From Paramicrobacterium chengjingii (GTDB lineage: Bacteria > Actinomycetota > Actinomycetes > Actinomycetales > Microbacteriaceae), in the NCBI RefSeq assembly GCF_011751765.2, contig NZ_CP061169.1:1426001-1490000 (forward strand): a stretch of 64,000 bases of DNA, given 5' to 3'. Under the pieces are notes generated by a model that worked only from the letters and a program-made list of their open reading frames with translations, was not told where the DNA came from and made no database searches. The stretch's first letter is position 1. Every line of letters starts with the position of its first letter. The position numbers and the translations under genes were made by a program. Positions 12,273-15,427 of this stretch are shown one piece after another.

Positions 12273-13271
12273 ATGCACCCAGAGCTACCGCTTGCGTTCG
12301 AGATCGGCTCATATGTCGTTCTCGTGCTCGTACTTCTCTTTGATCTGCTTCTTGTCGTCAAGAGACCCCATATTCCGTCGATGAAGGAATCCGCGCTCTG
12401 GGTTGCGTTCTATGTGACGCTTGCACTGGTGTTCGCCGGCCTCATGCTGGTATTCGCCGGTGGCGACTTCGCCGGGGAGTTCCTTGCCGGCTGGCTCACC
12501 GAATACAGTCTCTCGATCGACAACCTTTTCGTCTTCGTCATCATCATGGCGAAGTTTGCCGTTCCCAAGAAGCTGCAGCAGGAAGTTCTGATGGTGGGAA
12601 TCATCATCGCGCTTGTCTTCCGCGGCATCTTCATCATTGTCGGGGCGGCCCTCATCGAGAACTTCAGCTTCGTGTTCTTCATCTTCGGCGCATTCTTGCT
12701 CTACACCGCGTGGAAGCAGGCCTTCGGCAACGATGACGACGATGACGGAGAGTCATGGTTCACGCGCTTCATGCGCAAGCGGATGAAGGTTGCGCCCGAG
12801 TTTGACGGATCGAAGCTTCGCACCGTGGTAGAGGGGCGCTCGATGTGGACGCCCATGGTGATGGTATTTCTCGCCATCGGTGTCACCGATGTCATGTTCG
12901 CCATCGATTCGATTCCCGCGATCTTCGGCATCACGCAGAGTCCGTTCATCGTGTTCACGGCGAATATCTTCGCACTCATGGGGCTTCGCCAGCTGTACTT
13001 CATGCTCGGCGGACTGCTCGAGAGACTCGAGTATCTGCACTACGGCATCGCTTTCATTCTCGCTTTCATCGGAGTGAAGCTCGTGTTCCATGCTCTTCAC
13101 GTCAACGAGCTCCCGTTCATCAACGGCGGTGAGAACGTACTCTGGGTTCCCGAGATCAACACGTGGGTGTCGCTCGGCGTGATCATCGGGTCCATGGCGA
13201 TTGCAACGATCGTCAGCCTCATTGCATCGCGTCGCAAAGACAAAAAGGAACAGCAGATCTCGGGCGAGTGA
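12273..13271 (+). CDS. TerC family integral membrane protein
   Basis: 332 residues with about nine hydrophobic segments and the TerC signature: acidic intramembrane residues in SLSIDNLFVFVIIMAKF and VTDVMFAIDSIPAIFGIT. An acidic loop GNDDDDDGE separates the halves. TerC proteins were named for tellurite resistance, but several are Mn2+ exporters that protect secreted metalloenzymes or prevent Mn toxicity. The probable Mn riboswitch directly upstream supports a manganese role here. ATG 12273 has GAAAGG nine bases upstream. Confidence 0.9.
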   Translation: MHPELPLAFEIGSYVVLVLVLLFDLLLVVKRPHIPSMKESALWVAFYVTLALVFAGLMLVFAGGDFAGEFLAGWLTEYSLSIDNLFVFVIIMAKFAVPKKLQQEVLMVGIIIALVFRGIFIIVGAALIENFSFVFFIFGAFLLYTAWKQAFGNDDDDDGESWFTRFMRKRMKVAPEFDGSKLRTVVEGRSMWTPMVMVFLAIGVTDVMFAIDSIPAIFGITQSPFIVFTANIFALMGLRQLYFMLGGLLERLEYLHYGIAFILAFIGVKLVFHALHVNELPFINGGENVLWVPEINTWVSLGVIIGSMAIATIVSLIASRRKDKKEQQISGE

Positions 13272-13283
13272 TATCCTTACCAC

Positions 13284-13325
13284 GTGCTGTTCGGTCTGCT
13301 TCTTAGCTGCCGCGGCGAGGCCTAG
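13284..13325 (+). CDS. putative leucine-rich leader peptide of leuCD (13 codons)
   Basis: GTG followed by codons for LFGLLLSCRGEA and TAG: four Leu codons (CTG, CTG, CTT, CTT) in twelve positions. The hexamer TATCCT (13272-13277) ends six bases before the GTG, the same spacing as many starts in this window, so the leader would begin at the transcript's first base. An 11-base-pair hairpin (13310-13347) overlaps the stop codon. A ribosome stalled on the Leu codons would cover the hairpin's left arm. The location 67 bases before leuC makes leucine-responsive attenuation the natural reading. This is inference: I cannot show expression. Confidence 0.6.
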   Translation: MLFGLLLSCRGEA

Positions 13326-13347
13326 TCTTCAGGCATCCTCGTCGCGG
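13310..13347 (+). promoter_or_regulatory. attenuator-like hairpin before leuC
   Basis: CCGCGGCGAGG (13310-13320) pairs with CCTCGTCGCGG (13337-13347) over 11 positions with one G-T pair. The 16-base loop contains the leader stop codon. No T run follows, so if it attenuates it may do so through Rho, or by folding that affects the leuC ribosome-binding site (AAGGAAG, 13378-13384). Confidence 0.55.
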
Positions 13348-13391
13348 AGTCTGGTGACGCCTGTTCAACTTCACCCCAAGGAAGCACATTC

Positions 13392-14825
13392 ATGCAGCAG
13401 AACGTCGAAAACCCGAACGTCCCTCGCACACTCGCCGAGAAGGTGTGGGCCGATCACCTTGTCACAAAAGGCGAAGACGGCACCCCCGACCTCATCTACA
13501 TCGACTTGCACCTCGTTCATGAGGTAACGAGTCCGCAGGCCTTCGACGGCCTGCGCATGGCGGGTCGTCCAGTGCGGCGTCCCGACCTCACCATCGCGAC
13601 GGAAGACCACAACACACCGACGCTTGCCATCGACAAGCCGATCGCTGACCTCACGAGCCGCACGCAGATTCAGACCTTGCGCACGAACGCCGAGGATTTC
13701 GGCATCCGGTTACATTCGCTCGGTGATGTCGAGCAGGGGATCGTGCATGTCGTCGGCCCACAACTCGGTCTGACGATGCCGGGAATCACCGTCGTGTGCG
13801 GAGACTCGCACACATCGACGCACGGGGCATTCGGTGCGATGGCCTTCGGAATCGGCACGAGCGAGGTCGAGCATGTCATGGCGACACAAACGCTTCCGCT
13901 GAAGCCCTTCAAGACAATGGCCATCAACGTCGAGGGAACGCTGAAGCCCGGAGTGACGGCAAAAGACATCATTCTTGCGGTGATTGCCAAGATCGGCACG
14001 GGTGGCGGGCAAGGCTATGTGCTCGAGTACCGTGGCAGCGCCATTCGCGCGCTGTCAATGGAAGGTCGCATGACGATCTGCAACATGTCGATCGAAGCCG
14101 GAGCTCGCGCAGGCATGGTCGCGCCCGACCAGACGACGTACGACTACCTTGAGGGACGCCCACACGCGCCAGAGGGGTCAGACTGGGCTGAGGCAGTCGC
14201 CTACTGGGACACGCTCGCCACAGACGACGGTGCAACGTTCGATGCCGAGGTGTACCTCGATGCCGATGAGCTGGAGCCGTTCGTCACCTGGGGAACCAAC
14301 CCGGGCCAGGGCGTGTCCTTGAGCGGTCAGGTGCCGAGCCCCGAGCAGTTCGACGACCCGACAGACCGGTCGTCGGCCGAGCGAGCACTCGAGTACATGG
14401 ATCTCACGCCGGGCACGAAGCTCAAGGAGATCCCCGTCGACGCCGTCTTCATGGGCTCCTGTACGAATAGTCGCATTGAAGATCTTCGCTCCTTCGCGTC
14501 GATCATCAAGGGAAAGAAGAAGGCAGACGGCGTTCGCGTCATGGTCGTTCCGGGTTCGGCCCGAGTGCGTCTGGAAGCAGAGGCTGAGGGCATCGACACG
14601 ATCGTTGAGGAGTTTGGTGCCGAATGGCGTTTTGCCGGCTGCTCCATGTGCCTTGGCATGAACCCGGATCAGCTGTCACCCGGCGAACGTTGCGCATCGA
14701 CGAGCAACCGAAATTTTGAGGGGCGCCAGGGCAAGGGCGGACGCACTCACCTTGTCTCACCGGTTGTCGCCGCAGCGACAGCCGTGCGCGGCACACTGTC
14801 AAGCCCCTCTGACCTGGAGAACTGA
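13392..14825 (+). CDS. leuC: 3-isopropylmalate dehydratase large subunit
   Basis: 477 residues, aconitase superfamily. With LeuD it isomerises 2-isopropylmalate to 3-isopropylmalate in leucine synthesis. Ligands of the [4Fe-4S] cluster are visible: Cys357 in GSCTNSR, and Cys417 and Cys420 in AGCSMCLGM. The catalytic-region motif [13 protein letters not shown] is intact. AAGGAAG upstream of ATG 13392 is the ribosome-binding site. It is co-transcribed with leuD and preceded by the leucine-rich leader. Confidence 0.97.
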
Positions 14826-14830
14826 GCAGC

Positions 14831-15427
14831 ATGGAGAAATTCACAACGGTAACGGGAATCGCGGCGCCGCTGAAGCGCTCGAACGTCGACACCGACCAGA
14901 TCATCCCCGCCGTCTATCTGAAGCGCGTCACCAAGACGGGCTTCGAGGACGCGCTTTTCGCCGGGTGGCGTCAATCCGATGACTTCGTGCTGAACCAGCC
15001 GGAGTTTGCTGGCGCCAGCATCCTCGTCGCCGGTCCCGACTTTGGCACAGGCTCGTCTCGTGAACACGCCGTCTGGGCATTGCGCGACTTTGGTTTCACG
15101 GTTGTTCTGAGCACGCGTTTCGGCGATATCTTCCGCGGCAACTCGGGTAAACAGGGCTTGCTTGCAGCGCAGATCACTGAGAACGACCTCGAGCGACTCT
15201 GGGCCGTGATCGATGAAAATCCCGGCGTCGAATTCACCGTGAGCCTCGACGCCAAAATGGTGACTGTTGGAGACATTCAGGTGCCATTCGACATCGATGA
15301 TTACACTAGGTGGCGTTTGCTCGAAGGGCTCGATGACATTGCTCTGACGCTTCGAAATGAAGAGGCGATCACGCAATTTGAGTCCACGCGGGCACGTTGG
15401 CGGCCGCAGACCTTGCCCGCCAAATAG
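14831..15427 (+). CDS. leuD: 3-isopropylmalate dehydratase small subunit
   Basis: 198 residues, the swivel domain that completes the LeuCD active site. [15 protein letters not shown] near the N-terminus and [13 protein letters not shown] are the conserved substrate-binding motifs. It begins five bases after the leuC stop. The downstream gene murA starts 20 bases later, so leucine synthesis genes and an envelope operon may share a transcript, an arrangement I recall from other Microbacteriaceae. Confidence 0.96.

Follow-up and report, generated by a model that had tools for sequence, protein, structure and literature searches.

The window, a 64,000 nt stretch of the Paramicrobacterium chengjingii genome, carries leuC and leuD, whose identities were confirmed by Pfam and NCBIfam, behind a short leader (Table 1). 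The gene upstream of the leader belongs to the TerC family (Pfam). Its stop codon abuts the -10 hexamer (13269-13277), and thus the leuCD promoter must sit within the end of that gene. The original prediction had placed a leucine attenuator here, consisting of TATCCT, a GTG start codon six bases further on, a 13-codon ORF with four Leu codons and an 11 bp hairpin containing the stop codon (13310-13347), and direct reading of the sequence bore out each of these elements. The Leu codons are CTG, CTG, CTT and CTT, and the hairpin, hereafter P1, includes one G-U pair and holds the stop codon between its arms. The 67 bases given as the distance to leuC are the difference between positions; the actual gap between TAG and the leuC ATG at 13392 is 66 bases. 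Transcription probably starts at or next to the GTG, which would make translation of the ORF leaderless.

Table 1. Features of the leuCD leader in the window and of LEU-like scaffolds upstream of leuB at other loci
Feature	Sequence	Position	Strand	Basis or remark
-10 hexamer TATCCT	window	13272..13277	+	read in sequence; directly 3′ of terC stop codon
Leader peptide ORF VLFGLLLSCRGEA, start GTG, stop TAG (13323-13325)	window	13284..13325	+	read in sequence
Base stem P0, 5′ strand TGCTTCTT, within Leu codons	window	13297..13304	+	own fold; own-vs-crossed test; shuffle p 0.04 (single leader)
Hairpin P1, 5′ arm CCGCGGCGAGG	window	13310..13320	+	read in sequence; compensatory changes in relatives
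Pseudoknot 5′ strand CAGGC, in P1 loop	window	13330..13334	+	shuffle p 0.10 (single leader); own-vs-crossed test
Hairpin P1, 3′ arm CCTCGTCGCGG	window	13337..13347	+	read in sequence; compensatory changes in relatives
Pseudoknot 3′ strand GCCTG, 11 bases 3′ of hairpin	window	13359..13363	+	own-vs-crossed test over leaders
leuC Shine-Dalgarno AAGGAAG	window	13378..13384	+	read in sequence
Base stem P0, 3′ strand AGGAAGCA, overlaps leuC Shine-Dalgarno	window	13379..13386	+	own fold; own-vs-crossed test
leuC, 3-isopropylmalate dehydratase large subunit	window	13392..14825	+	TIGR00170, 730.8 bits (cut-off 560.25)
leuD, 3-isopropylmalate dehydratase small subunit	window	14831..15427	+	TIGR00171, 185.8 bits (cut-off 116.25)
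LEU-like scaffold upstream of leuB, leader MRNQVVSIACRGRAS, no Leu codon	L224	183-307		leuB by NCBIfam PRK03437
LEU-like scaffold upstream of leuB, leader MRKQLVLIACRGRTS	L225	135-260		leuB by resemblance
LEU-like scaffold upstream of leuB, leader MRHIFVLRCRGGAR	L229	158-286		leuB by resemblance
LEU-like scaffold upstream of leuB, leader MRFVLILRCRDGA	L237	135-253		leuB by NCBIfam PRK03437

The leader RNA of the window is more stable than its shuffled versions (z = -2.66; 2 of 200 shuffles were equally good), and an unconstrained fold also finds P0, the pairing of the Leu codons with the leuC Shine-Dalgarno sequence. The original prediction had overlooked this pairing, the pseudoknot and a twin of the leader at leuA. 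In the same fold, the start region of the leader (13284-13290) pairs with the first leuC codons (13393-13399) as well. As predicted, there is no T run, and no terminator-like site was found on the + strand between 13150 and 13500. For lack of an intrinsic terminator between the leader ORF and leuC, a classical attenuator of the leu or ilvB type was rejected. Likewise, the window leader matched no Rfam family at the gathering score or at E-values up to 10, and a riboswitch, a T-box or another catalogued RNA family was rejected on this basis.

The leuA copy and the LEU element

When the genome was searched at the DNA level with the leader, a single other place was found, which lies before leuA and matches at 76% over query bases 147-214 (E = 3.5e-6). 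This leader, in front of a gene whose identity as LeuA is supported by Pfam and NCBIfam, likewise consists of TATCCT, six bases, GTG, the peptide VFSTALLLSCRDEA, a stop codon and the same hairpin. From 22 leuC leaders and the leuA leader of the same genome, we built a covariance model, R1, the matches of which to these 23 rows are given by construction. The leuA twin and the R1 matches before leuC across Microbacteriaceae rule out that the leader is a chance ORF.

Seliverstov et al., 2005 named the LEU element of leuA in Actinobacteria, which is composed of a leader with Leu codons, a hairpin with the stop codon of this leader, a pseudoknot, and a helix between the Leu codons and the Shine-Dalgarno sequence (PMC1262725). 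The leuC leader has an upstream ORF that includes a Leu run, the base stem between this run and the Shine-Dalgarno sequence (found in its own fold and by the z of the own-vs-crossed test described below) and a pseudoknot, the support for which is weaker than that for P0. It is also homologous to the leuA copies, both by the DNA match and by R1, which finds both and includes the leuA leader among its 23 rows. It does not precede leuA, as the other copy in the genome does. We did not take this position as defining, because PMC1262725, where the named sites are leuA operons plus one transposase gene, applies the name to the copy inside the transposase gene. The feature before leuCD is probably a LEU element homologous to the leuA copy, for which we propose ribosome-read translational control of leuCD. 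The kind, i.e. the LEU element of leuA, is already known. According to the original prediction, no such leader is known to have been described at leuCD in Microbacteriaceae, and this agrees with our literature search as far as leuC is concerned: no description of a LEU element at leuC was found in the sources searched, among which subscription papers are thinly represented. What appears to be new is a family-wide second target, leuCD, along with an apparent exchange of a protein regulator for an RNA element.

To compare the leaders, 102 distinct sequences were entered and 96 analyzed; L189-L192 and L169 (P1 pattern unfit) and L151 (no ORF) were dropped, and L189 and L192 were restored only in a separate leuC/leuA pairing test. 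L141, a row marked unknown, is a leuC locus. A TAnnnT motif is present in 96/96 leaders, and its distance from the start codon (ATG or GTG) is six bases in 74 and seven in 16 of them; this conservation is partly selected for because R1 spans the -10 columns. The consensus peptide in relatives is close to (V/M)LFGLLLLSCRDE(S/A). The last Leu codon lies seven codons before the stop codon in 69/96 leaders. Counted from the first base of P1, the stop codon follows after 13 bases in 71 leaders and after 19 bases in 22 of the 96. CTT makes up 186 of the 337 Leu codons in the Leu run versus 21 of the 611 in leuC coding sequences (17 loci). This over-use may reflect a rare and hence sensitive codon, the pairing of CTT/CTC with the purine-rich Shine-Dalgarno sequence, or both.

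P1 is paired in 99.6% of the cells over 83 distinct rows of an alignment that was itself fitted to the model. Both sides have changed in four of its ten pairs, the other six are invariant, and its covariation score was reached by 0/500 shuffles. In the leuA leaders L189-L192, two adjacent P1 pairs are both exchanged, i.e. a compensated double change. P1 and its 3′ flank (GCGGAGTCYGT type; 13310-13363 in the window) are also conserved in sequence between leuA and leuC beyond the needs of pairing, possibly as a contact for a protein or the ribosome.

For P0 and the pseudoknot, each leader's own strands were compared with strands swapped between leaders (own-vs-crossed test) in sets of 80 leaders (under 90% alike), 49 leaders, and the 22 least related leaders. 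P0 scored z = -5.1, -3.2 and -2.8 in the three sets, and the pseudoknot -2.1, -2.3 and -3.2; by gene, the pseudoknot scored -2.4 in leuC leaders alone and a weak -1.0 in leuA leaders alone. Three control pairings ranged from -1.4 to +1.4. The fourth control, the start region against the Shine-Dalgarno sequence, gave -2.9, -1.9 and -1.2 and thus also scored, indicating that relatedness was not wholly removed. A helix of at least 4 bp starts 7-14 bases after P1 in 95/96 leaders, only 4 bp long in 38 of them, a count made without a null model. Shuffle tests of single leaders are weak, many P0 and pseudoknot helices not being significant on their own. The Shine-Dalgarno region forms its best helix without the Leu codons in L009 and L016.

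Distribution and the IclR-type gene beside leuC

At E-values below 1e-8, R1 matched 19 of 80 leuC loci from named records (L003-L082), and in every case the match immediately precedes leuC. The 19 loci all belong to the 27 (L003-L029) assigned to Microbacteriaceae, in part by record title; 17 of them had been used to build R1, and L025 and L027 had not. Conservation of the short ORF and its Leu codons had been proposed as the check on the predicted attenuator, and both are kept in these relatives. The other eight Microbacteriaceae loci lack the element at leuC as judged by R1. In the 53 leuC loci outside the family, there was no match at E below 1e-8 (best E 0.46).

A search of 150 Microbacteriaceae genomes found R1 matches in 144, with one match in 46, two in 91, three in seven, and none in six. 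Among the 150 matches listed, which leave out weaker ones, 95 precede LeuA, 54 precede LeuC and one, at a contig end, stayed unassigned. This assignment used 65 LeuC places out of the 150 listed and 95 of the listed LeuA places, chosen as those expected near matches. At least 68 of these 150 genomes (54 + 9 + 5) have the element before leuC, the last five being G088, G059, G051, G036 and G100, of which the G100 match is weak and, by our ORF script, devoid of a leader ORF. Within the best-scoring LeuC loci (L135-L160), 24/26 match R1. The third copy in seven genomes (L177, L178, L182, L183, L184, L185 and L186; leaders such as MLSAVLLLRRHDGA) precedes a second LeuA-like gene, which is 53-56% identical to the LeuA of P. 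chengjingii.

Class-wide, 177 of 296 genomes match R1: 14/14 of those from Microbacteriaceae, each with two or more matches, and 163/282 of the others, 15 of them twice. The 16 best loci outside the family (L199-L214) lie before LeuA in 15 cases, and the remaining one is truncated at the end of its contig. For the genomes outside the family with two matches, 17 stretches were taken from 13 of the 15 (G198 and G273 left out); 13 stretches precede LeuA-like genes and four do not (see below). A tree of 95 leaders, aimed at whether the leuC copies have a single origin and built on only 92 columns, left 45 of its 90 inner branches open and showed 12 label changes, only two of which are forced by starred branches.

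A LEU-like scaffold is also located upstream of leuB at four loci from other actinobacterial families (Table 1), where the leaders are rich in Val/Ile/Leu. This suggests that the leader codons may set which amino acid is sensed. Between the element and leuB, there is a tiny, conserved-looking ORF of 28-37 codons.

The neighborhood of leuC differs between the families. A divergent IclR-family gene (IclR_C and HTH_IclR, Pfam) lies beside leuC in 52 of the 53 loci outside Microbacteriaceae and in none of the 27 inside the family. The one exception outside it, L043, comes from an unclassified MAG and has 1659 bases of upstream sequence. In Streptomyces, NdgR and its orthologues are encoded next to leuCD, which they regulate, and C. 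glutamicum has LtbR as the counterpart (PMC4340878). No protein of the NdgR/LtbR type was found in any of the 150 Microbacteriaceae genomes at E 1e-30, and the best IclR-family protein of the P. chengjingii genome reached only E 7.9e-17 with 34% identity. In a control search of 15 genomes from other families, 14 gave a protein of this type with an E-value of 1e-62 or lower, the miss being the draft genome G384. Ancestrally, leuCD was presumably controlled by the IclR gene. Microbacteriaceae seem to have lost the NdgR/LtbR-type regulator, and in many members a copy of the leuA switch apparently stands in for it at leuCD. The eight Microbacteriaceae loci devoid of the leuC element also have no adjoining IclR gene; thus, the protein may have gone first, or the element may have been lost again there.

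We hold the evidence to be evenly balanced on a wider scenario, in which the LEU element replaced the IclR regulator of leuCD, the first two leucine-specific steps have a ribosome-sensing pseudoknot in common, and the scaffold works as a module that takes its specificity from its codons. The last part is proposed because Val/Ile/Leu codons are present in the leuB copies of other families. The leader at leuC extends an RNA element of one gene to a second step of the leucine pathway across a bacterial family, and leuCD offers a natural case of an operon at which a duplicated RNA element appears to have taken the place of a transcription factor gene.

Proposed ribosome reading of the leader and known systems

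We propose that a ribosome starts the leader peptide at the GTG without a Shine-Dalgarno sequence, the transcript presumably beginning at or beside this codon. When leucine is plentiful, the ribosome would move past the Leu codons and finish at the TAG, in the loop of the hairpin. The Leu codons, no longer covered, would then pair with the leuC Shine-Dalgarno sequence; P0 would enclose both P1 and the pseudoknot, and leuC would be translated at a low level. When charged Leu-tRNA is scarce, a ribosome on the Leu codons would cover the 5′ strand of P0, leave the Shine-Dalgarno sequence free and allow leuCD to be translated. Of this scheme, we observed the ORF, the leuA twin, the absence of a terminator and helices that are conserved as pairing potential; the transcription start, the stalling, the direction of regulation and the translational output are what the model would add. 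The predicted attenuator is retained as a conserved, leaderless-type Leu-rich leader, the likeliest role of which is to couple leucine supply to leuCD, and the hairpin is only one part of it. The predicted switch by hairpin opening is not retained in that form, because the Shine-Dalgarno sequence can be paired by the Leu codons directly, around the hairpin and the pseudoknot. As to the output, which had been left as Rho-dependent or translational, this pairing favors translational control.

The direction was examined by masked folding with an assumed ribosome footprint of 28 bases, the pseudoknot lying outside the model. The mean unpaired probability of the Shine-Dalgarno sequence in 61 leuC leaders was 0.30 free, 0.45 with the ribosome stalled on the Leu codons and 0.34 at the stop codon; for 33 leuA leaders, the values were 0.29, 0.43 and 0.26. 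This probability was higher in the stalled than in the stop state, with a difference above 0.1, in 25/61 leuC and 26/33 leuA leaders, and the reverse was seen in seven and two, respectively. The leuC leader of the window, when cut at the ATG, showed a small effect (0.43 free, 0.51 stalled, 0.48 at the stop codon), and with 40 bases of leuC the values were 0.21, 0.45-0.56 and 0.33. In these models, the direction fits translational attenuation and the size of the effect is moderate.

If leader translation instead decided the release of RNA polymerase within the leader, Rho would probably be involved, as we assume because there is no T run. Such transcriptional attenuation would follow classical leader-peptide logic, Rho needs no terminator, and Rho was considered for the cys leaders in PMC1262725. 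However, the match of the Leu codons to the Shine-Dalgarno sequence of their own gene would be unneeded under Rho, and the leader is short, with a high degree of folding predicted. We regard this explanation as unlikely, slightly more so than that of a protein site.

The latter reading takes the LEU element as the binding site of a regulatory protein rather than a sensor read by the ribosome. The authors of PMC1262725 doubted ribosome reading and proposed the ML1624 helicase family as the regulator. As they report, mutants of the S. coelicolor leader (Craster et al., 1999) were inconsistent with classical attenuation, and these mutants count against the ribosome-read model and for a protein site. 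The sequence conservation of P1 and its 3′ flank beyond pairing, with six of ten pairs invariant over 83 rows, also speaks for such a site. Against it stand the ORF, its frame, the Leu run and the stop position, all of which are kept, the enrichment of rare CTT codons, and the four leuB loci, where the codons are altered yet the scaffold is kept; we therefore consider it improbable. That the leuC copy is a silent relic, or acts on re-initiation or mRNA stability with no response to leucine, would agree with the 8/27 Microbacteriaceae leuC loci devoid of the element. The ORF, Leu codons, helices and promoter spacing are nevertheless conserved at leuC in many genomes, and we give this explanation very little credence. 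Ribosome reading, doubted in PMC1262725, is reopened by the CTT over-use, the Leu codons fitted to the Shine-Dalgarno sequence and the codon-changed leuB copies. These three features make the ribosome-reading model directly testable with reporters.

Among known systems, the leu leader of the enterobacterial leuABCD operon (Rfam leu_leader) has Leu codons in a leader peptide and works through a terminator and an antiterminator. The window leader likewise places a Leu-codon leader peptide before leucine genes, but has neither the classical terminator/antiterminator nor an Rfam match. Poly-Cys leaderless attenuators of mycobacteria were reportedly described by Canestrari et al. in 2020; judged by description, they resemble the leuC leader as leaderless short ORFs with regulatory codons. 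For mycobacterial cys leaders, too, no intrinsic terminator is described in PMC1262725, but the amino acid is cysteine, not leucine. The ilvB attenuator of Corynebacterium, Mycobacterium and Streptomyces resembles the leuC leader in having branched-chain codons in an actinobacterial leader peptide, but it ends in an intrinsic terminator and differs in peptide and structure (PMC1262725; PMC13236596). At leuA of C. glutamicum, a presumed leader with four consecutive Leu codons is given in PMC4046766. Closer is LeuL1 of Streptomyces lividans leuA, MRFGLLLLSCRGEGL, which is nearly the same peptide as that of the window and, according to PMC8079986, is leaderless by RNA-seq and has no typical Rho-independent terminator; it belongs to leuA and to the genus Streptomyces, whereas the window copy belongs to leuC and Microbacteriaceae. 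Finally, the LEU element (PMC1262725) shares with the window leader the ORF with a Leu run, the pairing of Leu codons with the Shine-Dalgarno sequence, the pseudoknot and the absence of a terminator; it is located at leuA, whereas the window copy presumably regulates leuCD.
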